From positions 1 to 36,177 of the forward strand of contig CAMTMC010000028.1 in NCBI GenBank assembly GCA_947073515.1: 36,177 nucleotides of DNA. Reading direction: 5' to 3'. The notes below the pieces were generated by a model that made no database searches, was not told where the DNA came from, and saw nothing but the letters and a program-made list of their open reading frames with translations. Numbering within the stretch: position 1 is the first letter of the stretch; the number at the start of each line of letters is the position of its first letter. The position numbers and the translations under genes are program-made. This DNA comes from an uncultured bacterium (GTDB taxonomy: Bacteria > Bacillota > Clostridia > Oscillospirales > Oscillospiraceae). This document shows positions 13,797 through 31,428 of the stretch, piece by piece.

Positions 13797-13830
13797 GTCA
13801 GCCTTGAAAGAACGGGATGGAAACAGCGTT

Positions 13831-15798
13831 ATGGAGCAGAAAACAATTGTTGTCGTGACAGACCGCCTTCGGATTGCGAAAAAAATTGAGGAGGACCTCC
13901 ATCAGGTTTTGACAGACCATGTGCGCACGGTAGCTTTGACGCTGGACGAGGCGGACCAGATGCTGGAACTCAAGGGGGACTTGTTTCTATTCCCCCTGGG
14001 CAACCGTATCGAACGGGTGAAGAGCAAAATCCGGAATCCGGACGATATTCTGGTGGTCACCAGAACATTTAAGGAAAAGGAACTGGTCAAGATTTTGGAG
14101 ATCCCCCAGAACACCAAGGTCTTGATTGTAAACGACAACTACGAGAACACCTTACAGACAGTATCTCTGTTGTATGACCTGAAGATCGAAAATATTAAAA
14201 TGGTCCCCTACAAGGAAGACGAGTATGATATGACCATCAATCTGGCTATCACGCCGGGGGAACCTGGGAAAGTACCCTCCCACATCGCCAAAATTATTGA
14301 CATCGGGGATCGCTGCCTGGATCTGTCCACCTTTCTAAAAATCATATACCGCCTGGGCATTGTGGACAATGACGTCTCTACCAGGCTGCTGAATTACAGC
14401 GCCCAGCTCATCAATACCAACGAAGGAATTACCCGCAGCTATAAAGAGACAGTAATCCGCAACATTCAGCTGGAGCGGATGCTGGATATGACGGATCAGG
14501 GCGTAGTCATGACTTTGAAGGACGGGAAAATTATTCTGTGCAACAACAAATTTAAACAGTTGGTGTCATGCCCTGTGGCTGAAGGGGAAACCTGTCTTCA
14601 GGACATCTTTGATGACAGTATTTTGGAGACCATCAAACGACAGGAGAAGAAGGGGTTGTTGGTTAAAATCAATGGCCGGGATATTCTGCTGACTCAGAAT
14701 AAAATCGTGTACCAGCGGGATATTTATCAGAACATCTACTTCTTCAAGGACATGACCTACATCAAGTCTTTGGAGGAGACCGTCTCTGGCCGGATGAATA
14801 CCCAGGGGTTTGTGGCGAAATATACCGTAGACGACATCGTCTATCAGTCCACCGCCATGGAGAAGTGCCTGCGGCTGGCTAAAATCTACGCCAACACGGA
14901 AAAGACGATTCTCATCACCGGACAGAGCGGAACCGGCAAAGAGCTGCTGGCCCAGTCAGTTCACAACCTCAGCGAGCGGCGTCTCCAGCCTTTTGTCGCG
15001 ATTAACTGCGCAGCGGTGCCCGCCAATCTGCTGGAAAGCGAGCTGTTCGGCTATGAGCAGGGGGCCTTTACCGGCGCCTCCCGGGGCGGTAAATCTGGCC
15101 TATTTGAGTATGCCAACAACGGGACCATCTTTTTAGACGAGATCGGCGACATGCCCTATGAACTGCAGTCCCGGCTGCTCCGGGTCATCCAAGAACGGCA
15201 GATCATGCGGGTAGGCGGCGGCCAGATTAAAAACGTCAATGTCCGCATCATATGCGCCACAAACCACGACCTTTTGGCCGAGGTGGGGCAGGGCCGTTTC
15301 CGGGAGGACCTCTATTATCGAATCAGCGTCCTGCCCATCCGCATCCCGCCGCTGCATCAGCGCAAAGATGATATTCTGCCCATTTTCCGCAGCTATCTGC
15401 CCGACGGAGGCTATGCTCTCACCCCCCAGGAAGAAGCCGTCCTTCTGGCCTACGACTGGCCCGGAAACGTCCGGGAACTGCACAACGCCGCCGAGTACTA
15501 TATGCTGATGCGTGGCACAGAAGAGAGTCTCCCCCAGTACATCCTGGAAAAAACCGGCCCACCGCAGAACGATGAGGAGATCCAGATCTTGCTCCATGAG
15601 ATTCACCGGGCCTGGGAAACCGACGGTGGAATTGGCCGGGAGGCACTGCACACCCGCCTCTGCCAGGCGCACGGCCGGGAGATCAGCGTTTACCGACTGC
15701 GGTTACTGCTGAATCAGCTGCAAAATCAGGGCCGCGTTGAGATACGGCGGGGTCGCCGGGGGATTATTCCCGGCAGGGCTTTTCGGGAGGAAAAATAA
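13831..15798 (+). CDS. sigma-54-dependent transcriptional activator with PrpR-like sensor region
   Basis: A 655-residue bacterial enhancer-binding protein. The first 200 residues form a two-lobed sensor resembling the PrpR N-terminal receptor domain (inferred from layout), followed by a PAS-like segment at about 215-320. The AAA+ domain has Walker A GQSGTGKE (about 364-371), the sigma-54 contact loop GAFTGA (411-416) and Walker B GTIFLDEIGD. The C-terminus is not the usual Fis-type helix-turn-helix: it reads more like a winged helix (ISVYRLRLLLNQLQNQGRVEI). ATG 13831 was chosen although its ribosome site is weak (GGGATGGA, somewhat far); the frame opens at a TTG 27 bases upstream. A terminator, then a -24/-12 promoter and the peptide operon follow, so it probably activates that operon. 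Confidence 0.9.
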   Translation: MEQKTIVVVTDRLRIAKKIEEDLHQVLTDHVRTVALTLDEADQMLELKGDLFLFPLGNRIERVKSKIRNPDDILVVTRTFKEKELVKILEIPQNTKVLIVNDNYENTLQTVSLLYDLKIENIKMVPYKEDEYDMTINLAITPGEPGKVPSHIAKIIDIGDRCLDLSTFLKIIYRLGIVDNDVSTRLLNYSAQLINTNEGITRSYKETVIRNIQLERMLDMTDQGVVMTLKDGKIILCNNKFKQLVSCPVAEGETCLQDIFDDSILETIKRQEKKGLLVKINGRDILLTQNKIVYQRDIYQNIYFFKDMTYIKSLEETVSGRMNTQGFVAKYTVDDIVYQSTAMEKCLRLAKIYANTEKTILITGQSGTGKELLAQSVHNLSERRLQPFVAINCAAVPANLLESELFGYEQGAFTGASRGGKSGLFEYANNGTIFLDEIGDMPYELQSRLLRVIQERQIMRVGGGQIKNVNVRIICATNHDLLAEVGQGRFREDLYYRISVLPIRIPPLHQRKDDILPIFRSYLPDGGYALTPQEEAVLLAYDWPGNVRELHNAAEYYMLMRGTEESLPQYILEKTGPPQNDEEIQILLHEIHRAWETDGGIGREALHTRLCQAHGREISVYRLRLLLNQLQNQGRVEIRRGRRGIIPGRAFREEK

Positions 15799-15841
15799 TG
15801 GCCGAATAATTGGATGAATATATTAAATTGGTCGAATGAGA
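15799..15841 (+). promoter_or_regulatory. possible activator-binding direct repeats
   Basis: TGGCCGAAT (15799-15807) recurs as TTGGTCGAAT about 30 bases further on, roughly three helical turns, 110-150 bases upstream of the -24/-12 promoter. This is a typical distance for enhancer sites, but only one base-imperfect repeat pair is seen, so this is a weak inference. Confidence 0.25.
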
Positions 15842-15878
15842 TGGGTCTCAGCTTGGGACCCATCTTACATTTTTCTCA
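15839..15878 (+). terminator. Rho-independent terminator of the activator gene
   Basis: Arms AGATGGGTC (15839-15847) and GACCCATCT (15857-15865) with a 9-base loop, followed by TACATTTTTCTC. Confidence 0.75.
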
Positions 15879-15950
15879 ATTTTGGACTTATTTCCCCCAG
15901 TTCCCTCCTGTTTAGAGAACAAAAACCTCGCTATCCTCCGGCGTAAAACT

Positions 15951-15966
15951 TGGCATCACTTTTGCT
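15951..15966 (+). promoter_or_regulatory. sigma-54 (-24/-12) promoter of the peptide operon
   Basis: TGGCATCACTTTTGCT: the invariant GG and GC are 12 bases apart as required, and TTGC is exact. It lies 37 bases before the first gene, downstream of a sigma-54 activator. Confidence 0.85.
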
Positions 15967-16002
15967 TACTAAATAAATGAAAACACAGAAAGGAGGGATC
16001 CT

Positions 16003-16746
16003 ATGTACCAGCCGATTATCGGCATATTGAGTGACACCATGCGGCACCACTCCCCCATATTCGGCGACATACCAAAACATTATGTCAACGAAAAATACGT
16101 CACCGCCGTGGAAAAAAACGGAGGAATATCTGTAATCCTGCCAATGTATGGGGATAATGAGAAATTGCGGGCTGCGGCGTCCTTGTGTGACGGCCTGCTG
16201 CTGCCTGGAGGTGAGGATGTGGATCCGGCCCTATATGGAGAGGGCCCCCACCGGTGCCTGGGAGAGATTCATCCCGGTTATGACCGCTTCGCCATGGCGG
16301 CGCTGCAGCTGGCAGAGGAATTCCAGCTGCCCTGCTTGGGAATCTGCAAAGGGATGCAGATTATGTCCGTATACTCCGGCGGCTGCCTGTATCAGGACAT
16401 GTACTCCCAGATCAAGGGAGATGTGCTGCTCCACTGTCAACAGGGACGTCGGGATTACCCGGTACATCAGGTCAAACTCAATCCAGACAGCCGGCTGCGT
16501 CAGATTCTCGGTCAGGAGGTGGTGGAGGTCAATAGCATGCACCACCAAAGCATCCGAACCCCGGGGAATCGGTTAAAGGTGACCGCCTGGGCCGATGACG
16601 GGATCGTGGAGGCCCTGGAGGATTCGGAGGGGCTGTGGATCGGTGTCCAGTGGCATCCGGAGGAGCTGGTGGAGACTTCCGGGATTATGAACCGGCTGTT
16701 CGCAGACCTCACCGCCCGGGCATCTGAGAGGAGGAGCAAGAAATGA
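16003..16746 (+). CDS. gamma-glutamyl-gamma-aminobutyrate hydrolase family protein (peptidase C26)
   Basis: A 247-residue class I glutamine-amidotransferase-like hydrolase of the C26/PuuD family, which cleaves gamma-glutamyl amide bonds. The nucleophile elbow is LGICKGMQ (Cys115; most relatives have GICRGMQ), and the His/Glu pair is in QWHPEE (His218, Glu220). LLPGGEDVDP is the oxyanion-side loop of the family. The ATG at 16003 follows AAAGGAGGGATC. It is the first gene after the -24/-12 promoter and overlaps the next gene by 4 bases. With a peptide importer and peptidases downstream, it probably hydrolyses imported gamma-glutamyl compounds; the exact substrate is unknown. Confidence 0.88.
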   Translation: MYQPIIGILSDTMRHHSPIFGDIPKHYVNEKYVTAVEKNGGISVILPMYGDNEKLRAAASLCDGLLLPGGEDVDPALYGEGPHRCLGEIHPGYDRFAMAALQLAEEFQLPCLGICKGMQIMSVYSGGCLYQDMYSQIKGDVLLHCQQGRRDYPVHQVKLNPDSRLRQILGQEVVEVNSMHHQSIRTPGNRLKVTAWADDGIVEALEDSEGLWIGVQWHPEELVETSGIMNRLFADLTARASERRSKK

Positions 16747-17912
16747 TGACCGCATTAGTAGGAGGCACTGTACAGACTATCACCCACGGTATCCTGGAGG
16801 AGGGCACCGTGTTGGCGGAAAACGGTAAAATCCTTGCTGTAGGCAAAAATTTGGACATCCCCTCCGAAGCCCAGGTGATCCACACTCACGGCTGTTGGGT
16901 GATGCCCGGCCTGATCGACTGCCACACCCATCTCTGCCTGATGAGCGAGCCCAAAACCATGCCCTCCCTTCAGTCGGAGACCAACGAAAAGAGCGGCCCT
17001 ATCACTCCTTATCTCCGAGCCTCCGATGCGCTGAACCCCTTTGACTACGCGGTGAACAAGGTTCGAGAGGCCGGTTTTACCACTGTCTACACCGGCCCCG
17101 GCTCCTGCAATCTCATCGGAGGAATGGGGATCAGCTGCAAGCTGCGGGGAAACACCGCCGACGAGATGATGATTCCCGGAAGCGAACAGATGAAATTTGC
17201 CCTGGGAGAGAATCCCAAACGCATCTACGGCATGGAGGGCAAGTCCCCTGTGACGCGGATGGGATCCGCTGGCTTAATCCGTAAGGCGCTGTTTGAGGCC
17301 AAGCGGTACTCCGATGCCCTGTTTCACAGCGAACAGGGCACAGGCGTGCCGCCCCCCTTCGACTACAGCCTACACCATCTGGTGCCGGTGGTCCGGGGGG
17401 AGATGAAGGTACGCATCCACTGCCACCGGGCGGACGATATCGCCACCGCCCTGCGGTTAGTGGACGAATTCCATCTGAAATATTCCATTGAACATGCTAC
17501 GGACGGTATCCGGATCAAGGAGGTTCTCGGCGTTCGAAAGGCCACCTGTGTGGTGGGCCCCCTCCTGCTGGAACCCAACAAGGAGGAGACCAGAACCATC
17601 TGCCTGGAGACCGCCGGCGTGCTGGACAAGGCCGGATGCAAGATCTGCCTGATGGCGGATACCGCCTCCCGCACGGCGTGGCTGCCAGTGGAAATCGGCC
17701 TGTTGCTGCGCCGGGGGCTGTCGGAAGAGACTGCCTTCCGGGCTGTAACCATCAACGCCGCGGAAAATTTGGAGCTGGATCACCGGCTCGGTTCACTGGA
17801 GGCGGGCAAAGACGCGGATATCGCCGTCTTTGACGGGCATCCCTTCTCCAACCTGTCCCTGTGCCGTTTGACCATGATTGAGGGTACCATCTACCACAAT
17901 ACGCTTTCGTAA
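16743..17912 (+). CDS. amidohydrolase family protein (imidazolonepropionase/dipeptidase-like)
   Basis: A 389-residue metal-dependent amidohydrolase with the TIM-barrel plus beta-sandwich pattern. Metal and catalytic residues can be seen as DCHTH (His61, His63), RIHCHRADD (His226, His228), SIEHATDG (His251) and MADTAS (Asp306). The C-terminal NLELDHRLGSLEAGKDADIAVFDG closes the sandwich. Relatives include imidazolonepropionase-like hydrolases and prolidase-type dipeptidases. The start overlaps the stop of the C26 gene (ATGATGA), implying translational coupling. In this operon a cyclic-amide or dipeptide substrate is likely, by inference. Confidence 0.85.
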   Translation: MMTALVGGTVQTITHGILEEGTVLAENGKILAVGKNLDIPSEAQVIHTHGCWVMPGLIDCHTHLCLMSEPKTMPSLQSETNEKSGPITPYLRASDALNPFDYAVNKVREAGFTTVYTGPGSCNLIGGMGISCKLRGNTADEMMIPGSEQMKFALGENPKRIYGMEGKSPVTRMGSAGLIRKALFEAKRYSDALFHSEQGTGVPPPFDYSLHHLVPVVRGEMKVRIHCHRADDIATALRLVDEFHLKYSIEHATDGIRIKEVLGVRKATCVVGPLLLEPNKEETRTICLETAGVLDKAGCKICLMADTASRTAWLPVEIGLLLRRGLSEETAFRAVTINAAENLELDHRLGSLEAGKDADIAVFDGHPFSNLSLCRLTMIEGTIYHNTLS

Positions 17913-17927
17913 AGAGGAGGAAAAAAC

Positions 17928-19583
17928 ATGAAAAAGTTTACAAGAATCCTGTCCTTGCTGCTGACAGCCTGTCTGTTGGCCAGCTGTGCCCCCCAAGCAC
18001 CCTCCAGCTCTTCCGGTTCTCCCAATTCTTCCAAGCCCTCCGGCGCCCAAAGCGGTGAGCCCGCCGGGAAGGAGGAAAAGGTGATGACCATCGGGACCCA
18101 GTACAGCATCGCTACTCTGAACCCCCTGAAGGCCACCGCCGACGGAGACCGCTATGTGCTGTGCAACATCTACGAGTCCCTGGTGGAGTACGACTCCGCT
18201 GGCAAGTTCGTCCCGGGATTTGCCCAGTCCTGGGAGACCGAGGACGACCACACCTGGGTCTTCCACTTGAAGGACAACTCCTATTGGCAGACCGGCAATG
18301 ATCTGTTTAAGGATGAGAAGGTTCCGGTCACTGCCAATGACGTCAAGCAGATCTTTGAGATGACCATGGACGAGGCCAACGAGTCCGCCCAGCGGGTGGC
18401 AGTCTCCTCCAATCTGGAGTCTATTGAGGTCGTAGACGACACCACCATTAAATTCATCACCAAGACCCCCGACGCCTACTTCTTATCCACCCTGGCCAAC
18501 GTCTACCTCTTCCCGCCCAAGGCCATTGAAACGGGCTTTGACCTGACCAAATTCCCCGTGGGTTCCGGCCCCTACAAGTTTGTCAAATACGCCACCGATG
18601 ACGAGGTCGTTCTGGAGAAGAACGCCGACTTCGCCATTGAGCCCGGCCTGGACGAGGTAGTCTTCAAGATTATCCCGGACAAATCCGTCCTGGCGATCTC
18701 CCTCCAGAATAATGAGATCGACCTCGCTACCACCGTCATGCCCAACGACCTGGCCTCTGTGCTGGCCAAAGAGGACCTGACCGTAGTGGCCAACGCCTCC
18801 GGCTGGTACCGCTATATGGGCTTCAACTTTGACAACGAGCTGTTCCAGGATCCTGATATCCGCCGGGCTGTCTGTATGGCTATTGACGTGGATTCCGCCA
18901 TCGCCGCCACCTTCCGGAATGACGCCAACGTGGACATCGCTGTTCGGGCCTACGGTCCTATTCCGCTGGAGTTTGTGGGCGCGGATGAGGAGGCCTGGAA
19001 AAAGGTCACCCCCGCCTATGACCCCGAGGGTGCGAAAGCCCTCATCGAGTCCAAGGGCTACACCCTGAACGCCAACGGCATCTACGAAAAGGACGGCCAG
19101 GAGCTGACCTTCACGCTGAAGAGCGCCAACTACGACCCCAATATGAAATTCGGGATCATCGTCTCCACTGAGCTGAAGAAAATCGGCATCAACTGCGTAT
19201 CCCAGCCGACCGAGTGGGCCACGCTGCTGTCCGACCTGAAAGCGGGCAACAAGGAGGCCTTCATCATGGGCGGCGGGAGCACCCTGACCGGAATGAACTC
19301 CCTGTTCCACTCCGTGAAGTCCAAGGGAGGTTCCCATGCGCTGAATTATGTAAATTTGGAGTTGGATGTCAAGCTGGACCAGGCCTTCGCCACCATGGAC
19401 GAGACCGCCCGGGCCGCCCTGCTCTCCGAGGCCTCCTGCATAGCTATGGAGGACTGCGCGGAGCTGCCCCTGTTCTTCGAGTACGCCCAGTGGGGTATGA
19501 ACAAACGGGTGCAGGACTTTGAGCAGACACCCGCCCTGTACTTCTCCCTGACCAACAGTCAGAGGAATATTACGGTCAAATAA
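17928..19583 (+). CDS. ABC transporter substrate-binding lipoprotein, family 5
   Basis: A 551-residue peptide/nickel-type extracellular solute-binding protein (SBP_bac_5). The signal peptide is basic MKKFTRI followed by a hydrophobic core and lipobox LLASC with the lipidated Cys20; a Ser/Pro-rich tether follows. The mature part shows the family pattern (SIATLNPLKATADGDRYVLCN, then FVPGFAQSWE and WVFHLKDN, and later DPDIRRAVCMAID). It is anchored outside the membrane and gives peptides to the two permeases downstream. The ribosome site is AAGAGGAGGAAAA. A strong hairpin follows, before the first permease. Confidence 0.93.
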   Translation: MKKFTRILSLLLTACLLASCAPQAPSSSSGSPNSSKPSGAQSGEPAGKEEKVMTIGTQYSIATLNPLKATADGDRYVLCNIYESLVEYDSAGKFVPGFAQSWETEDDHTWVFHLKDNSYWQTGNDLFKDEKVPVTANDVKQIFEMTMDEANESAQRVAVSSNLESIEVVDDTTIKFITKTPDAYFLSTLANVYLFPPKAIETGFDLTKFPVGSGPYKFVKYATDDEVVLEKNADFAIEPGLDEVVFKIIPDKSVLAISLQNNEIDLATTVMPNDLASVLAKEDLTVVANASGWYRYMGFNFDNELFQDPDIRRAVCMAIDVDSAIAATFRNDANVDIAVRAYGPIPLEFVGADEEAWKKVTPAYDPEGAKALIESKGYTLNANGIYEKDGQELTFTLKSANYDPNMKFGIIVSTELKKIGINCVSQPTEWATLLSDLKAGNKEAFIMGGGSTLTGMNSLFHSVKSKGGSHALNYVNLELDVKLDQAFATMDETARAALLSEASCIAMEDCAELPLFFEYAQWGMNKRVQDFEQTPALYFSLTNSQRNITVK

Positions 19584-19601
19584 CCTCTCCCCAAAAACGA
19601 T

Positions 19602-19632
19602 GAGTCCCGGCCGGCCCGGCCGGCCGGGACTC
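19602..19632 (+). promoter_or_regulatory. GC-rich hairpin after the binding-protein gene
   Basis: A perfect 14-bp stem, GAGTCCCGGCCGGC with GCCGGCCGGGACTC, and a 3-base loop; no U-run. It stands between the substrate-binding protein and permease genes, where such hairpins commonly protect the upstream mRNA or limit readthrough so that binding protein exceeds permease. Confidence 0.7.
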
Positions 19633-19658
19633 TGATCAACGCCTGGAAGGGAACAAAT

Positions 19659-20624
19659 ATGCGGACATATATTATAAAACGGCTGCTTCAGGCAATCCCC
19701 ACCCTGCTGGTCATCTCGTTCCTGATTTTCTCGCTGCTCTATATCACACCCGGTGATCCGGTCCTGATCATGCTGGGCACCAGCGACAACCAGACCATGA
19801 CCGAGGAGGAGTATCAGGCCGCCAAGCACGATATGGGACTGGACCGCCCGATGCTGGCCCGCTACGGGGAGTTTTTGACTGGCGCTCTCCGCGGCGATCT
19901 GGGTAAGTCCTACATCACTGATGAGGATGTATTTGACACCATCGTCAGCAAGATGCCCGCCACGCTGATCCTGACGCTGGCCGCCATACTCATTGCGCTG
20001 ATGATCTCCATTCCACTGGGAATTCTGGCCGCCATCCGCCACAACAGCATTTGGGACACGTTGGCTACATTCCTAGCCACCATAGGCACCTCTCTGCCTA
20101 AATTCTGGTTTGGACTGGTGCTGATCATCTTCTTCTCGCAAAATCTGCACTGGCTGCCTAGTCAGGGCATCGCTTACCCCCTGGAAGATGGGTGGCTGGC
20201 CTTTTTCCGACACCTGATCCTGCCCGCCGCCTCCCTATCCCTGGGCCTGGCGGCAACCCAGACCCGTATGATCCGCTCCAGCATGTTGGATGTCCTAGGA
20301 CAAGACTATGTGCGCTTTGCCAGGAGCAAGGGACTGAAAGAACGGGCTGTGATTATTGGCCACGCCATGAAAAACGCCATGATCCCGGTGGTTACGGTCA
20401 TCGGAAGTGAATTCGGATCCCTGCTGGGTGGCGCCGTGGTCACAGAGACCATCTTCTCCTGGCCGGGAATCGGCCGACTGGCTATGAATTCCATCAACAA
20501 ACGGGACTACCCCATGATCCAGGGCAACACCTTGGTGATGTGCGCTATTTTCCTCACGATCAACCTACTGGTAGATATCGTCTGCGCATGGCTCAACCCC
20601 AAGATCCGCCTGGATAAGCAGTAA
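19659..20624 (+). CDS. peptide ABC transporter permease, DppB/OppB type
   Basis: A 321-residue inner-membrane permease. Six hydrophobic segments are visible; the first follows MRTYIIKRLLQAIPTLLVIS, the typical DppB/OppB N-terminus. The cytoplasmic EAA loop that docks on the ATPases is GLKERAVIIGHAMKNAMIP. It forms the channel with the next gene's product. The preceding ribosome site is GGAAGGGAAC. It is followed 15 bases later by the partner permease. Confidence 0.94.
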   Translation: MRTYIIKRLLQAIPTLLVISFLIFSLLYITPGDPVLIMLGTSDNQTMTEEEYQAAKHDMGLDRPMLARYGEFLTGALRGDLGKSYITDEDVFDTIVSKMPATLILTLAAILIALMISIPLGILAAIRHNSIWDTLATFLATIGTSLPKFWFGLVLIIFFSQNLHWLPSQGIAYPLEDGWLAFFRHLILPAASLSLGLAATQTRMIRSSMLDVLGQDYVRFARSKGLKERAVIIGHAMKNAMIPVVTVIGSEFGSLLGGAVVTETIFSWPGIGRLAMNSINKRDYPMIQGNTLVMCAIFLTINLLVDIVCAWLNPKIRLDKQ

Positions 20625-25932: not shown

Positions 25933-26051
25933 TTTTGCCACCTCCTATTAGAAGGATATCGAATTTGTCAGTTTTTGTCTGCCAATTCCTGTTGGCATTG
26001 TAAAAAATGTCGAGATACTTTGAAGATAACCCCGTCTTGGATACAAAAAAT

Positions 26052-26088
26052 AACAGCGCCAAGAGGATTGAATCCTCTTGGCGCTGTT
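26052..26088 (-). terminator. strong terminator, end of the lyase/BCCT operon
   Basis: A perfect stem of about 17 bp (arms beginning AACAGCGCCAAGAGGAT) with a minimal loop, followed on the minus strand by ATTTTTTGT. It ends the leftward transcript of the ergothionase-like operon and shields the XRE cassette. Confidence 0.85.
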
Positions 26089-26100
26089 GATAGTGGACGA

Positions 26101-26153
26101 TGAAAAGATTTATTCCTGGGGGTTCCCCCGCCTCCGGCGGGGGAACCCCCAGG
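26101..26153. repeat. dispersed palindromic repeat, copy 2
   Basis: The flank TGAAAAGATTTATTCC (26101-26116) matches copy 1 at 13457 exactly. It runs into a perfect 18-bp hairpin (arms 26115-26132 and 26136-26153, loop TCC). The right edge of the hairpin coincides with the point where the adjacent membrane gene loses its coding character. Confidence 0.75.
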
Positions 26154-26345
26154 AGACGGACAGGGCAGGCAGGACAGCAGGATGGCCTTCACCGGATGAA
26201 CATCGGTAAAGCAGATAGGGCCGAAGAACATGACGAACAGCGCCACCATCATCACCAGCAGGGTGATCTTCTCCCGCCGGTTATTGGGGGGTGTGAGGAA
26301 AATTTTCTTCAGGTCGATCTCCACCCTGGTGATTTCTTTTTTCAT
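26154..26345 (-). pseudogene. truncated membrane protein gene
   Basis: About 64 codons from ATG 26345, one base after the lyase stop, read a charged N-terminus (MKKEITRVEIDLKKIF) and a clear membrane span (EKITLLVMMVALFVMFFGPI) before the sequence runs into the palindrome at 26153. The frame continues open to 25968, but through the hairpin and the terminator, giving a Gly/Pro/Arg-rich tail that is not protein-like. The 3' part was therefore probably lost and replaced. The start of a multi-span transporter is the simplest reading. The family is not recognised. Confidence 0.55.
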
Positions 26346-26346
26346 A

Positions 26347-27875
26347 TCAGCTCAACGCTCCTGTCACTTGTTCAGCCACCCGGATCAGCCCGCCCGAGTG
26401 GATAAAGTCCTTCAGGTACTCAATATAGGGGTGGAGCAGCATATCCTTCTCCATTACCGGCACGGTCTTGCCGATCTCAGCCAGCACCGCCGCCGTGGCC
26501 GGTGCCCGGCTCACATCCGGATCCACAAACTGCTGCACCCCATACACGCTGAGCAGCTCGATGGCCAGCATGTACTCCAGCTTCTCCGCCATGGGCCCCG
26601 CCTTCTTGCAGGCGTTGTAGCCCATGGCCACGTAGTCCTCCTGGTTGCCGCAGGTGGGGGTGTTGTCGATGGTGGAGGGGGTGGCCAGCATCCGCATCTC
26701 GTTGAGCAGGCCGGCCTGCACGTACTGAGGGATCATCAGCCCGGAGTTGAGCCCCGGGTTCTTGATGCAGAAGTAGGGGTAGCCGGACAGGGAGCCGTCC
26801 ACAATGCGGTTGTTGCGCCGCTCGGACATTTTGGCCAGCCCCACGGCGGCGATACAGGCGCTGTCCATCTCCATGCCCACATAGGCCGAGTCGGCGTTAC
26901 AGGCGGAGATCACATCCTCGTTCCCCTTCTCCGGCCAGATGATGGGGTTGTCGCAGCAGGAGTTCATCTCAATCTCGATGGTCTTCTTCGCGTCCTCCAG
27001 GGCCTTTCGGGCCGCGCCGTGGAGCTGGGGGATGCACCGCAGGGAGAGGGCGTCCTGCACCCGCCCTCATACTTCTTCATAATGCCCGAGCCCTTCAGGA
27101 TCCGGCGGACATTTTCCGAGGCGTTGAGCTGGTCGGGGTGGGACCGGACGGCCATCACCCGGGGATCGAAGGCGTTAATGACCCCCTTCATGGCCTCCAG
27201 GGACATAGCGCCCACAATATCGGCGGACTTTGCGGCGTTGAGCATGTCATACAGGGCCAGGGCCGCCATAGCGGTGGCGGAGGTGGTGCCAGAGACCAGG
27301 GCCAGCCCCTCCTTGGAGCTGAGGGTCATGGGCTCCAGTCCGGCCCGCTTCAGGGCCTCGGCCCCCTCCAGCAGCTCGCCCTTGTAGTAGGCTTTGCCCT
27401 TGCCCAGCAGCACCAGGGCCATGTGGGCCTCGGGGGAGAGATAGCCCACGCTGCCGTCCCCAGGGGCGTAGGGGGTCAGGCCGGCGTTGAGGAAGTCCCG
27501 GTACCGCTCCAGCACCGCCATCCGTACACCGCTGTACCCCTGGCCGATGTTCTGCAATACCATAAGCATGATGCCCCGCGCCCGCTCCACGCTCAGGGGC
27601 TCTCCCACCGAGACGGAGTGGGACAGGATGATGTTCTCCTGGAGCTGGGCGGTGGACTCCTTGTCGATGGCCTTGGTACACAGGGCGTCGAAGCCGGTGG
27701 TGACGCCGTACATCACCCGCTCCTCCTCAACCCACCGCTCCACCAGGGCCCGGGAGCGGCTGACACGCTCTGTGTACGCCGGGGAAAACTCCACCTTCCG
27801 CCCGAACCGGGCCACAGAGACGAAATCATCTAACGTGATGGGTTCGCCCAGTACAAGTGTTTTCATCTCTTCCAT
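26347..27875 (-). pseudogene. MIO-less histidine ammonia-lyase homologue (ergothionase-like), frameshifted
   Basis: Two minus-strand frames together encode about 509 residues of the aromatic amino acid lyase fold. The first starts MEEMKTLVLGEPITL at 27875 after GAGGTG, and has the catalytic-Tyr loop MYGVTTGFDAL. Where HutH/PAL enzymes have GSVGASGDLAPL-AH, this protein reads GSVGYLSPEAH: the Ala-Ser-Gly triad that forms the MIO cofactor is absent and the loop is about 3 residues shorter. Ergothionase, which eliminates trimethylamine from ergothioneine, is a known member of this fold that works without MIO. After KYEGG (about 27060) the frame shifts by one base; the second frame resumes as QDALSLRCIPQLHGA, the usual family sequence. 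A single missing base (GGC-CGG-GTG to GGCGGGTG) explains it. It follows a BCCT transporter gene by 16 bases. The ergothionase assignment is an inference from the loop and context. Confidence 0.75.
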
Positions 27876-27891
27876 CTTTAAAACACCTCGT

Positions 27892-29469
27892 TTACGCCTC
27901 AATCTGATCCGCGCTGTCCACGATATCCTTTTTGGTCTCCGGGTCAAAGAAGAACACCTTAAAGGCCGCCGCCACCTGGAAAATGAATACAACCAGCACC
28001 ACAAAGCCGCCGCAGGCCGCCAGGTACTTCACGCCGTCCACGCCCTGGGCGCCGCCGCCGAAGGCCACCATAACGCAGGCGATCACGCCGATGGACACGC
28101 CCCAGACGATCTTCTGCCAGATGGCGGGCTCCTCGTCGTGGCGGGCCCCCTTGGTGCACAGGGCGGCGATGGTGGTGGACATGGTGTCCGCCGTGGTGGA
28201 GAAGGCGGCGATGAGGGCCAGGATGATCACCGGAATGATAATCATGCCCAGAGGGACATGCTTCAGGAACTCCCACAGGCCGGTGGTGGCGCCGCCGCTC
28301 TGAATGGCGGCGATGATGTCCGCGCTGCCGCTCTTCTGCCACTCCAGGGCGGTGGAGCCCCACACGGAGAACCACACATAGCCGAAGGAGGCGGGCAGGA
28401 TCCAGTTGACGATCAGGAACTGGCGCACAGTGCGGCCGTAGGCGATGATGGCGAAGAAGATGCCCATCAAGGGGGCGTAGGCGATCCAGATGGCCCAGTC
28501 ATACATGGTCCACCAGGTGACCAGGGCGGAGCCGCCCACGGTGTAGGGGTCAAAGCCCTACATCCAGAACCGGTCCAGCCAGTAGCCCAGGCCCACGTTG
28601 GCCATATTCAGGATGTAGATGGTGGGGCCGATGATGAACAGCAGGACCAGCAGCACGTGGAAGATCTTGGAGGTCAGGCCGGCCAGCCATTTGATGCCCT
28701 TGTCGATGCCGGTGACCGAGGCGATGGTAAAGGTGATGGTAATGATGGCGGTCAGGGCCATCCACACAATGGGGCCCTGCTCCACGCCATAGGCGGAGTA
28801 GAGGCCGGAGCCGATCAGGGCCAGCCCGGCGCCCAGGGAGGAGGCCAGGCCCAGGGCGATGGCCAGCACGGACAGCACATCCACCAGCACCACCCAGATG
28901 CCCTGGGTCACCTTCTCCCCGAAGATGGGGGTGAGGGAGGCGGATACGGAGAATTGTTTTTTGCGATTGAAATACATATAGGCGATAAGCAGGCCGGACA
29001 GGGCATACATGGCGTAGGGGATGAAGGTCCAATTGTAGAAGCAGCGGCCCATGGCGAACAGCTCCGCCTCCTGGGTCAGGGGGGTGATGCCATAGCCGTC
29101 CAGCTCGCCGTAGATGTTGCCGTAGTAGATGAGGACCTCGTTCACGCCATAGGTAATCAGGCCGGTGGCGATACCGCCGGTAAGGGTCATGGCGAACCAG
29201 GAGCCGAAGGAGTGCTTGGCCTTGGCCTGCGGCCCGCCAAAGCGGATCTTGCCTGCCTTGGTGAACAGCAGCAGGGCGGCCAGCAGCAGGGTAACCATGG
29301 CCACAATCTGGTACAGCCAGCCAAAGGTACTCAGCGACCAGTCAAACATCGTGTAGGTGACATTGGTCAGCCAGGCGTTGTTGACAATGCCCAGCAGAGC
29401 CGCGCCGCCGACGACAACAAAGCAGGGGATGAATACGTCCCAACGGATCGGCTTGTTCTCATGTTTCAT
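27892..29469 (-). pseudogene. BCCT (betaine/carnitine/choline) transporter with an in-frame TAG
   Basis: About 525 codons of a BCCT-family sodium- or proton-coupled betaine transporter, about 12 membrane spans. The start MKHENKPIRWDVFIP at 29469 has GGAGAG upstream. Family signature: WWTMYDWAIWIAYAPLMGIF and YGRTVRQFL after the stop, matching the BCCT motif of CaiT/BetP. A TAG at 28558-28560 interrupts the frame between RFWM and GFDPYTV with no shift, so one base change separates it from an intact gene. First gene of the operon, upstream of the MIO-less lyase; ergothioneine is itself a betaine, which suits this family. Regulated by a -24/-12 promoter and the divergent activator. Confidence 0.85.
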
Positions 29470-29502
29470 GTTTCTCTCCGTATGCGGCGGGTGGGCCGCA
29501 TA
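29466..29502 (-). promoter_or_regulatory. leader mini-frame and hairpin before the BCCT gene
   Basis: On the minus strand, AAAGGAAAGGAGAGT is followed by ATG (29501) and an 11-residue Arg-rich frame, MRPTRRIRRET, whose TGA overlaps the BCCT start (ATGA). An 8-bp stem, TATGCGGC/GCCGCATA (29481-29502), with a 6-base loop, holds the mini-frame's start codon. Translational coupling or leader-peptide control is possible; expression is not shown. Confidence 0.4.
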
Positions 29503-29534
29503 CTCTCCTTTCCTTTTACTCTGCCATAAGATAC

Positions 29535-29552
29535 AAGCAAATCTGGAGCCAA
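29535..29552 (-). promoter_or_regulatory. sigma-54 (-24/-12) promoter of the BCCT/lyase operon
   Basis: Minus strand TTGGCTCCAGATTTGCTT: GG and GC are 12 bases apart, with TTGGC and TTGCT matching the consensus. The start would fall near 29526, about 57 bases before the BCCT start. Confidence 0.8.
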
Positions 29553-29656
29553 CCGGAGGAAACCAATCAAATTCATCCTTCTTGCACAAAAGCCGAAGTT
29601 TTAATTTATGCACTATCCCAATGTTTTGAGCGGACAGCCCGATTGTGCGGGTGCGG

Positions 29657-29697
29657 TTTGCGGCGCCAATATGCAAAATTTATTTGCGTATCGCAAA
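29657..29697. promoter_or_regulatory. probable activator-binding palindromes
   Basis: TTTGCG-TAT-CGCAAA (29683-29697) is a perfect 6-bp dyad, and TTTGCGG (29657) faces GCAAA (29673-29677) as a second, looser pair. They lie about 110-160 bases upstream of the -24/-12 promoter, in the gap between divergent activator and operon, as enhancer sites of sigma-54 activators do. Confidence 0.5.
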
Positions 29698-29714
29698 AAT
29701 TTTATGCGCTCCTT

Positions 29715-29743
29715 TTGACACAGTACCCGGCGCGATTTACAAT
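29715..29743 (+). promoter_or_regulatory. sigma-A promoter of the divergent activator
   Basis: TTGACA (29715-29720), 17 bp, TACAAT (29738-29743), 35 bases before the activator start. Confidence 0.8.
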
Positions 29744-29778
29744 TAAAAAAAGAATTGGGGAAGAGAGGGGGACCGTGT

Positions 29779-31428
29779 ATGCTCTATGACATTCTGTTTA
29801 CCCCGGACGGAGAGGGCCGCTTTCTTGGGGCGGCCTGGGGCAGCAGAGAGGCGGAGGAGCTGTACCGGGACTTGTTTGAGGAGTGGGCCGCCCGCCGCCG
29901 CCGGGTGGACACCGCTTTCGACCTGCCCGAGGGGGCGGACAGCGGGGAGCTGGTCTGGGAGGAGGACACCTTTTATTTTCAGCTCCTCCCCGCTCCAGAG
30001 GGGAAGCGGTGGCTGCTGTTGAAGCGGGAGGACAACCAGGCCTATCTTCTGCGCCGGGCCCTGGACCAGATTGCCGACGGGGTGCAGATCTATGACAAAA
30101 ATGCCTGCGCTGTCTACTTCAACAGGGCCAGCCGGGAGATCTCCCACATCCCCGGCGGGGTGAGTGTGGAGGGGCGGCACCTTCTCGACCTGTACAACTT
30201 GGACGAGACGGTCAGCACTACCATGACCGCCCTCCAGACCCAGGCCCCGGTTCTGGACCGGGTGGGCCGCTTCCGGGTCAATGACTTCAGCGCGGAGCCC
30301 ATCGCCTCGGCCAACACCTCCTATCCCATCTTCCGGGAGGGGGAACTGCTGGGGGCGGTGGTTTTTGAGCAGACTGCGGAGCTGGTGGAAAAAAACCTGA
30401 AGAAGATGGAGGCCACCCGGCGGGCGCTGGCCAACTTCCCCAAGGGGCCGCCCAAGATCAGCTTTTCCGGCTACACCTTCGACAATGTGATCGGCGGCTG
30501 CCTCAAGCTGCGGGAGGCCGTGGCCCTGGCGAAGCGGGTCTCCTCCCAGGAGAGCCCCGTCCTACTGGTGGGCGAGACGGGGACAGGCAAGGAAATTTTC
30601 GCCCAGAGCATCCACCGGGCCAGCCGCCGCCGGGGCGGGAAGTTCCTGGCCATCAACTGCGCCGCCGTCCCGGAGACCCTCATTGAGAGCCTTTTGTTCG
30701 GTACCCGGAAGGGCAGTTTTACCGGTAGCGAGGACAAGGCGGGCTATTTTGAGGAGGCCAGCGGCGGCACGCTCTTTTTGGACGAGCTGAACTCCATGAG
30801 CCTGGCGATGCAGTCCAAAATCCTGCGGGTCCTCCAGGAGAAGACCTTCCGCCGGGTAGGGGGCAGCCAGGATATTCGGTTGGATGTGCGAGTGATCTCC
30901 TCCTGTAACGAGGATCCCTTCAAGGCCATCTCAGAAAACACCTTCCGCCGGGATCTGTTTTACCGCCTGTCCACGGTGATGATTGAACTGCCTCCACTCC
31001 GGGATCACCTGGAGGACCTGGAGGAGCTGATCCGTTACCACCTGGAGGCCACCGCCTACCAATTTGTTCACGCGGTCACCCGGATCGAGCCGGAGGTTTA
31101 CAAGATCCTCCGGGCCTACCACTGGCCGGGCAACGTGCGGGAGCTGTTCCATGTGCTGGACTACGCCCAGAATGTCACAGACTCCCAAATTATGGAGGTC
31201 CGGCACCTGCCTCCCTACCTGCTGAAGCGCCAGGATGATCCAGCGGCCTTCCCTGCCATCAACTTCTCCCAAAAGGATCTCCAGGGACTGATGGATGACT
31301 ACGAGCGGGAGATCCTTGTCCAGGCCCTGGAGTACTGCGGCTATAACATCTCTCAGACCGCCAAAACGCTGGGGATCCTCCGTCAGAGCTTGCAATACAG
31401 AATCCGGAAATATGGATTGATTTTTTAA
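29779..31428 (+). CDS. sigma-54-dependent activator, PAS-AAA+-Fis (RocR-like)
   Basis: A 549-residue enhancer-binding protein. After an unassigned N-terminal 90 residues comes a PAS domain (about 95-215: QIADGVQIYDKNACAVYFNRA), then the AAA+ domain with Walker A GETGTGKE (265-272), sigma-54 contact loop GSFTGS (312-317, instead of GAFTGA; the key Phe-Thr pair is kept), Walker B GGTLFLDEL and the arginine-finger region. The C-terminal Fis-type helix-turn-helix is intact (EYCGYNISQTAKTLGILRQS, about 519-538). ATG 29779 follows GAGAGGGGG; the frame opens at a TTG eight codons earlier. It is divergent from, and presumably controls, the BCCT/lyase operon, probably in response to its substrate. Confidence 0.92.
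   Translation: MLYDILFTPDGEGRFLGAAWGSREAEELYRDLFEEWAARRRRVDTAFDLPEGADSGELVWEEDTFYFQLLPAPEGKRWLLLKREDNQAYLLRRALDQIADGVQIYDKNACAVYFNRASREISHIPGGVSVEGRHLLDLYNLDETVSTTMTALQTQAPVLDRVGRFRVNDFSAEPIASANTSYPIFREGELLGAVVFEQTAELVEKNLKKMEATRRALANFPKGPPKISFSGYTFDNVIGGCLKLREAVALAKRVSSQESPVLLVGETGTGKEIFAQSIHRASRRRGGKFLAINCAAVPETLIESLLFGTRKGSFTGSEDKAGYFEEASGGTLFLDELNSMSLAMQSKILRVLQEKTFRRVGGSQDIRLDVRVISSCNEDPFKAISENTFRRDLFYRLSTVMIELPPLRDHLEDLEELIRYHLEATAYQFVHAVTRIEPEVYKILRAYHWPGNVRELFHVLDYAQNVTDSQIMEVRHLPPYLLKRQDDPAAFPAINFSQKDLQGLMDDYEREILVQALEYCGYNISQTAKTLGILRQSLQYRIRKYGLIF

Follow-up and report, generated by a model that had tools for sequence, protein, structure and literature searches.

Which compound is imported, sensed and cleaved by the products of a small locus in the window (the whole stretch of 36,177 nucleotides that was analysed) is the question raised by positions 26,347 to 31,428, where a lyase gene, a transporter gene and a divergent regulator gene stand together. 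The first-pass annotation had read these genes as a sigma-54-controlled unit for the use of ergothioneine, with a lyase that lacks the tripeptide from which the MIO group of histidine ammonia-lyases is formed. Each part of that reading was followed up by domain, motif and tree analysis and by comparison with related loci.

Gene content and sigma-54 control

The following features were placed at or beside the locus.

25968..26345, minus strand: remnant of a gene for a small (~85 aa) membrane-type protein, which follows the lyase in relatives
26347..27866, minus strand: MIO-less HutH/PAL-fold lyase, broken (N-terminal piece 27063-27866, C-terminal piece 26347-27060)
27423..27455, minus strand: GSVGYLSPEAH, the site of the MIO-forming Ala-Ser-Gly in HutH, three residues shorter
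27895..29469, minus strand: BCCT-family transporter, PF02028 on two pieces at 217.9 and 135.4 bits (cut-off 27)
29536..29551, minus strand: sigma-54 type -24/-12 promoter TGGCTCCAGATTTGCT, 10/12 consensus positions
29779..31428, plus strand: divergent PAS / AAA+ / Fis-type sigma-54-dependent activator, open frame

The three genes, encoding a MIO-less HutH/PAL-fold lyase, a BCCT transporter and a divergent sigma-54 activator, are real. Both lyase pieces match PF00221 (Lyase_aromatic; 307.9 and 208 bits), and the motifs YGVTTGF, GSVGYLSPEAH and EIEMNSCCDNP are all read from the minus strand inside 26347-27866, although a frame break near 27,060 splits the gene, with in-frame stops and two separate matches. 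Relative to MIO-bearing HutH there is a three-residue deletion at the MIO site, which is the same in 46/46 rows of an aligned group picked by the GSVGYL motif, its rows being 39-100% identical and coming from many genomes. Motifs, Pfam and alignment thus bear out the earlier description of a lyase with HutH/PAL motifs and without the MIO tripeptide. The BCCT gene, interrupted by an in-frame TAG at 28558-28560, lies directly upstream of the lyase on the same strand, as had been proposed. The intact BCCT orthologue of locus L041 has the trimethylamine transporter 8ZW8 (205.8 bits) and BetP (197.6 bits) as its nearest PDB entries, and the glycine-betaine equivalog NF047988, scored on the two broken window pieces only, gave 192.5 and 108.6 bits (cut-off 650).

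The activator has PF00158 (208.2 bits) and PF02954 above cut-off and PF00989 (PAS) just below, and the predicted divergent activator of PAS type was confirmed by PF00158 and the Fis-type helix-turn-helix. The element TGGCTCCAGATTTGCT sits ~80 bp upstream of the BCCT gene, ahead of the BCCT-lyase operon, and most orthologous loci have a comparable element at about the same position. Across 35 intergenic regions (those of the window and of the 34 loci with a divergent activator among 53 GSVGYL loci), the best -24/-12 match reached at least 10/12 in 32, against a mean of 0.45/35 after letter shuffling; the scores below 10 were those of L049 (8), L051 (9) and L084 (9). Together with an rpoN gene in the window genome, this recurrence supports the sigma-54 control first proposed. 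Elsewhere in the window, 13804-20624 of the plus strand holds a second sigma-54 activator (PF00158, 664 aa), then a peptidase C26, an amidohydrolase, a family-5 solute-binding protein and an ABC permease, which is perhaps a second sigma-54-controlled nutrient operon.

Conservation across relatives

A scan of the genome collection, covering the best 80 of 96 relatives, gave 53 loci of the GSVGYL type (L039-L091), to which all counts in this paragraph refer unless another set is named. The search for the three-gene order recovered lyase, BCCT and activator together in 32/53, with the BCCT cluster in 38/53, the activator orthologue cluster in 37/53, the cluster of the small ~85-aa gene in 24/53 and a gene reading as sigma-54 in 14/53 (PF04552 confirmed there in two genomes). 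Contig ends truncate some loci, so these counts are lower bounds. By tblastn with one BCCT, 39/53 GSVGYL loci were matched versus 0/27 comparison HutH-type loci (L092-L118, the MIO motif being visible in 23/27). At the 11 loci closest to the window, identity was 88-94% to the N-terminal piece and 95-98% to the C-terminal piece, and the lyase frame was open in 11/11, that of L084 being cut by a contig end. Membrane-type proteins of 84-87 aa without a Pfam match are encoded downstream of the lyase, for example at L041 9535-9786 and L087 9582-9842. For the broader idea of betaine uptake, MIO-less cleavage and a sigma-54 switch there is more support than was available at the first reading.

Among the best 80 of 96 relatives, the named hosts belong for the most part to gut Oscillospiraceae and Lachnospiraceae, in which intact lyases are frequent; Flintibacter muris (L046), Blautia An81 (L057) and Pseudoflavonifractor (L040) are examples with intact orthologues. 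The close relatives with a genus name are Pseudoflavonifractor, Flintibacter and Lawsonibacter, beside which the earlier term 'gut Clostridium' is a loose label. Other hosts are Acidaminococcus, a record named Fusobacterium naviforme, and spirochaete and deltaproteobacterial genomes. Within the family of the window genome the GSVGYL type is uncommon, occurring in 3/250 genomes drawn, the window genome included. Three GSVGYL genes are present in one Pseudoflavonifractor genome, and at four loci (L062, L070, L077, L078) there is a sodium:solute symporter, BCCT being absent from the stretch. In C. symbiosum the frames of the operon are open, and there are two ergothionase-side lyases as well, one of them ~3 kb beyond the operon with its own BCCT.

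Some neighbourhoods combine several lyases. At 7902-16392 of L061, A. massiliensis has in a row a GSVGYL lyase, a three-subunit molybdenum hydroxylase (whose large subunit has kin in L089), a lyase 80% identical to ergothionase 6S7J and a BCCT transporter. Tandem MIO-less lyases with differing loop motifs occur in Blautia (L057 7944-11081) and Acidaminococcus (L062 790-5508), an arrangement that suggests substrate diversification.

Placement of the lyase relative to ergothionase

For the lyase tree, 142 rows were thinned to 81, with the window pieces entered as two rows. Treponema denticola ergothionase (6S7J) and the window lyase fall in separate starred clades. The branch parting MIO-bearing rows from all MIO-less rows has a support of 85 and is unstarred, and is compatible with either one or two losses of MIO. 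6S7J shares residues R57, W61, E142, G143 and D144 with the three sequences nearest to it in the tree; at R57, W61 and E142-G-D of 6S7J the window lyase has Thr, Ala, Tyr and two gaps. Maurer 2019 is said to name four essential catalytic residues of ergothionase. Membership in the ergothionase group was rejected on the separate clade and the missing R57, W61 and E142-G-D, the lack of MIO being the one trait that fits. The first interpretation stands in part: uptake of a betaine, cleavage without MIO and a sigma-54 switch gained support, and the identification as ergothionase failed in the tree and residue comparisons. Judged on sequence, the window lyase is a member of a second MIO-less clade, here called GSVGYL, that is related to but distinct from known ergothionase. 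On the ergothionase side of the tree there are also plasmid lyases with other loops, GSIGAADLAPLAH and GSVGQADMTLLSH, in Rhizobium (L036 5974-7479) and Sinorhizobium (L037 5926-7566), the former having OpuAC-like and HutC-like neighbours.

Active-site positions

The HAL positions Tyr53, His83, Gln277, Arg283 and Glu414, the last four of which we take to contact the imidazole and the carboxylate, are kept in GSVGYL lyases (46-row alignment), His83 in 45/46 and Glu414 in 46/46 rows. Other positions have changed, with smaller residues in place of Tyr280 and Phe329: Tyr280 is Leu in 40/46, Phe329 is Ala, Pro or Cys in 39/46, His330 is Asp in 45/46 and Leu149 is Glu in 45/46 rows, and Asn195 is kept in 16/46 and replaced by Ser in 29/46. 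The window lyase itself has Ser for Asn195, Leu for Tyr280, Ala for Phe329 and Asp for His330. Taken together, the kept and changed residues would fit an imidazole-bearing amino acid whose bulky, cationic group can leave by itself, as trimethylammonium does. By sequence and by predicted fold (VIA-align) the nearest PDB entry is 7TQR. The intact L041 orthologue scores 503.9 bits against the hutH equivalog TIGR01225, below its cut-off of 539.15; the window pieces were scored against it singly. Loop 57-67 of the model has low confidence, so active-site geometry is not argued from it.

Urocanate-pathway neighbours and plasmid relatives

Among the best 80 of 96 relatives, hut genes stand beside 6/53 GSVGYL loci (L061, L063, L065, L069, L082, L089), and at the other 47/53, the 11 closest to the window included, no hut gene was found within the stretch examined. 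The stretches of L069, L082 and L089 contain no lyase besides the GSVGYL one, which in L082 is itself broken; the L069 and L089 genomes have more lyases elsewhere, a MIO-bearing one among them in that of L089. The hut genes at L061, L063 and L065 are also served by a MIO-bearing HutH, and at the Acidaminococcus loci such a HutH adjoins hutU. Four of the HutU proteins, from L065, L069, L089 and Klebsiella L184, were scored, and all lie above the urocanate hydratase cut-off of 375 (429-1016 bits) and below the thiourocanate hydratase cut-off of 930 (293-691 bits). HutI (L069, L184), FtcD (L069) and HutG (L184) exceed their own cut-offs. A urocanase is present in 20/22 tested genomes with this lyase type and was unmatched in two, those of the window and of L040, the operon frames of L040 being open. 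An MttB gene adjoins L088 and L089; as proof of a methylated substrate it was dropped as non-specific, being also near 2/27 comparison loci.

Klebsiella plasmid CP110561.1 combines the hut pathway, an OpuAC/ProV-type glycine-betaine ABC transporter and a GSVGYL lyase at L184 5189-18531, with annotated hutU, hutI, hutG, hutF-type, hutC and hutD genes, and that lyase occupies the only lyase place in the record. At least 80% of the core of this cluster is covered in 163 plasmid records. On two Rhizobium plasmids a GSVGYL lyase likewise follows an OpuAC/ProV-type transporter, and on a Burkholderia plasmid one adjoins a hutC-like gene. The Klebsiella lyase is ~40% identical and forms a long branch that falls outside the 46-row clade when the tree is left unconstrained; a single clade of the two is allowed (p 0.534) and not demonstrated.

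State of the operon in the window genome

We read the window operon, from its sequence, as a recently broken, decayed copy that is probably inactive in this genome. Besides the two interrupted genes, the small downstream gene is a remnant, DNA homology to 8/8 close loci stopping at 26,145-26,147. Decay, if real, would be recent, since, of 123 columns without variation in 27 orthologues, the lyase pieces deviate in only one (G63 to D). The same near-intactness would also suit assembly errors in the lyase and BCCT genes of an operon that works in this strain, a reading we hold to be unlikely, against which stand the occurrence of two breaks and of a third, truncated gene in a single operon and the lack of a urocanase match in the window genome (94.4% complete), whose one other lyase has the MIO motif.

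Proposed function and alternatives

On balance we lean slightly towards the locus being a decayed sigma-54-switched betaine-utilisation operon whose lyase would be a hercynine trimethylamine-lyase, yielding urocanate and trimethylamine. Gene order, promoter, missing MIO tripeptide, separate clade, HAL-like positions and broken genes are read from the sequence; substrate, product, inducer and transport direction are proposed from them. In intact relatives, presence of the substrate would lead the PAS-sensor/AAA+ activator to open the -24/-12 promoter. A trimethylammonium amino acid, with hercynine (N,N,N-trimethylhistidine) as the likeliest candidate, would enter through the BCCT, and the lyase would eliminate trimethylamine from it, leaving urocanate. 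Since trimethylamine, unlike ammonia, is a good leaving group as it stands, the enzyme would do without MIO. The HAL-like active-site positions, with the hut and betaine-importer neighbourhoods, make this reaction the best single guess. For part of the GSVGYL clade the neighbourhoods point the same way, betaine importers of two kinds, BCCT and OpuAC/ProV-type ABC, standing by these lyases. Against it count the 47/53 loci (best 80 of 96) without a hut gene, the urocanase missing in 2/22 genomes, the presence of the operon in C. symbiosum, the MIO-bearing HutH at L061, L063 and L065, the retention of Asn195 in 16/46 rows, the long branch of the ~40% identical Klebsiella lyase and the non-specificity of MttB neighbours.

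Cleavage of another betaine or methylated histidine (S-methyl-ergothioneine, or the betaines of tyrosine, phenylalanine or tryptophan), with paralogues splitting a range of such compounds, appears unlikely. It would account for the tandem paralogues with differing motifs in Blautia and Acidaminococcus, the three genes in one Pseudoflavonifractor genome and the four loci with a sodium:solute symporter and without BCCT in the stretch; however, the conservation of His83 and Glu414 argues for imidazole, and some loci are linked to hut genes. That the clade also splits ergothioneine, into thiourocanate and trimethylamine, and so is ergothionase after all, we regard as improbable. The shared absence of MIO, the nearby BCCT (as at ergothionase-side genes), the A. 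massiliensis row holding both lyase kinds with a BCCT, and the operon in C. symbiosum all speak for it, and the GSVGYL and ergothionase-type enzymes share company, so that substrate overlap is possible. PMC13405746, citing Zhou 2025, reports that C. symbiosum degrades ergothioneine. Set against these are the clade apart from 6S7J with none of R57, W61 or E142-G-D, the genomes that carry both lyase types and the urocanate type of all four tested HutU proteins, neighbouring or plasmid-borne.

The hut clusters whose stretch has only the GSVGYL lyase could also be served by a histidine ammonia-lyase that lacks MIO and takes histidine itself as substrate. This is very improbable, given that MIO is regarded as essential for ammonia release, that Tyr280 is lost in 40/46 rows, that the importers are of betaine type and that several genomes also retain a MIO-bearing HutH. 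Returning to hercynine, the wider proposal that the GSVGYL clade is a second, undescribed MIO-less PAL-fold family of trimethylamine-lyases, comprising hercynine lyases of gut Oscillospiraceae, Lachnospiraceae, Acidaminococcus and the Fusobacterium naviforme record, plus hut-linked ones on Klebsiella plasmids, is tentative and close to evenly balanced. No paper on a hercynine lyase was recognised by titles and abstract openings in the open PMC literature, outside which most subscription papers lie.

Implications and comparison with known systems

Hercynine is named as a main ergothioneine metabolite in human volunteers in PMC7653990. Through a hercynine lyase, a dietary betaine would be connected with trimethylamine and urocanate; this would, if true, constitute an unrecognised gut route to trimethylamine and, via urocanate, to products of the histidine pathway. 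The enzyme would also be a second PAL-fold form that dispenses with MIO when the leaving group is trimethylamine. As some public records (e.g. H1, H66) label such genes histidine ammonia-lyase, an annotation-only survey of trimethylamine-lyases could miss or misname them. The operon's own switch and importer make the substrate question directly testable.

Among known systems, the ergothionase of Treponema denticola (6S7J/6S7Q) shares the PAL/HutH fold and the missing MIO tripeptide, and its kin also stand near BCCT genes (L061, L087), as GSVGYL lyases do. It differs in its loop, SSIGE-GDITTLSH as against GSVGY---L, and in having Arg57, Trp61 and Glu142 where the GSVGYL lyase has Thr, Ala and Tyr. 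HutH (Pseudomonas putida 1B8F; Thermoplasma acidophilum 7TQR) shares the positions of Tyr53, His83, Gln277, Arg283 and Glu414, whereas its Ala-Ser-Gly MIO precursor is missing from the window lyase, which also differs by the four substitutions at Asn195, Tyr280, Phe329 and His330. Like the BCCT transporters 8ZW8 and BetP, the window transporter has the whole family domain. The PrdR-type sigma-54 activators are the best NCBIfam match of the window activator and share its PAS-AAA+-Fis layout, but at 348.6 bits it falls far below the PrdR cut-off of 795.
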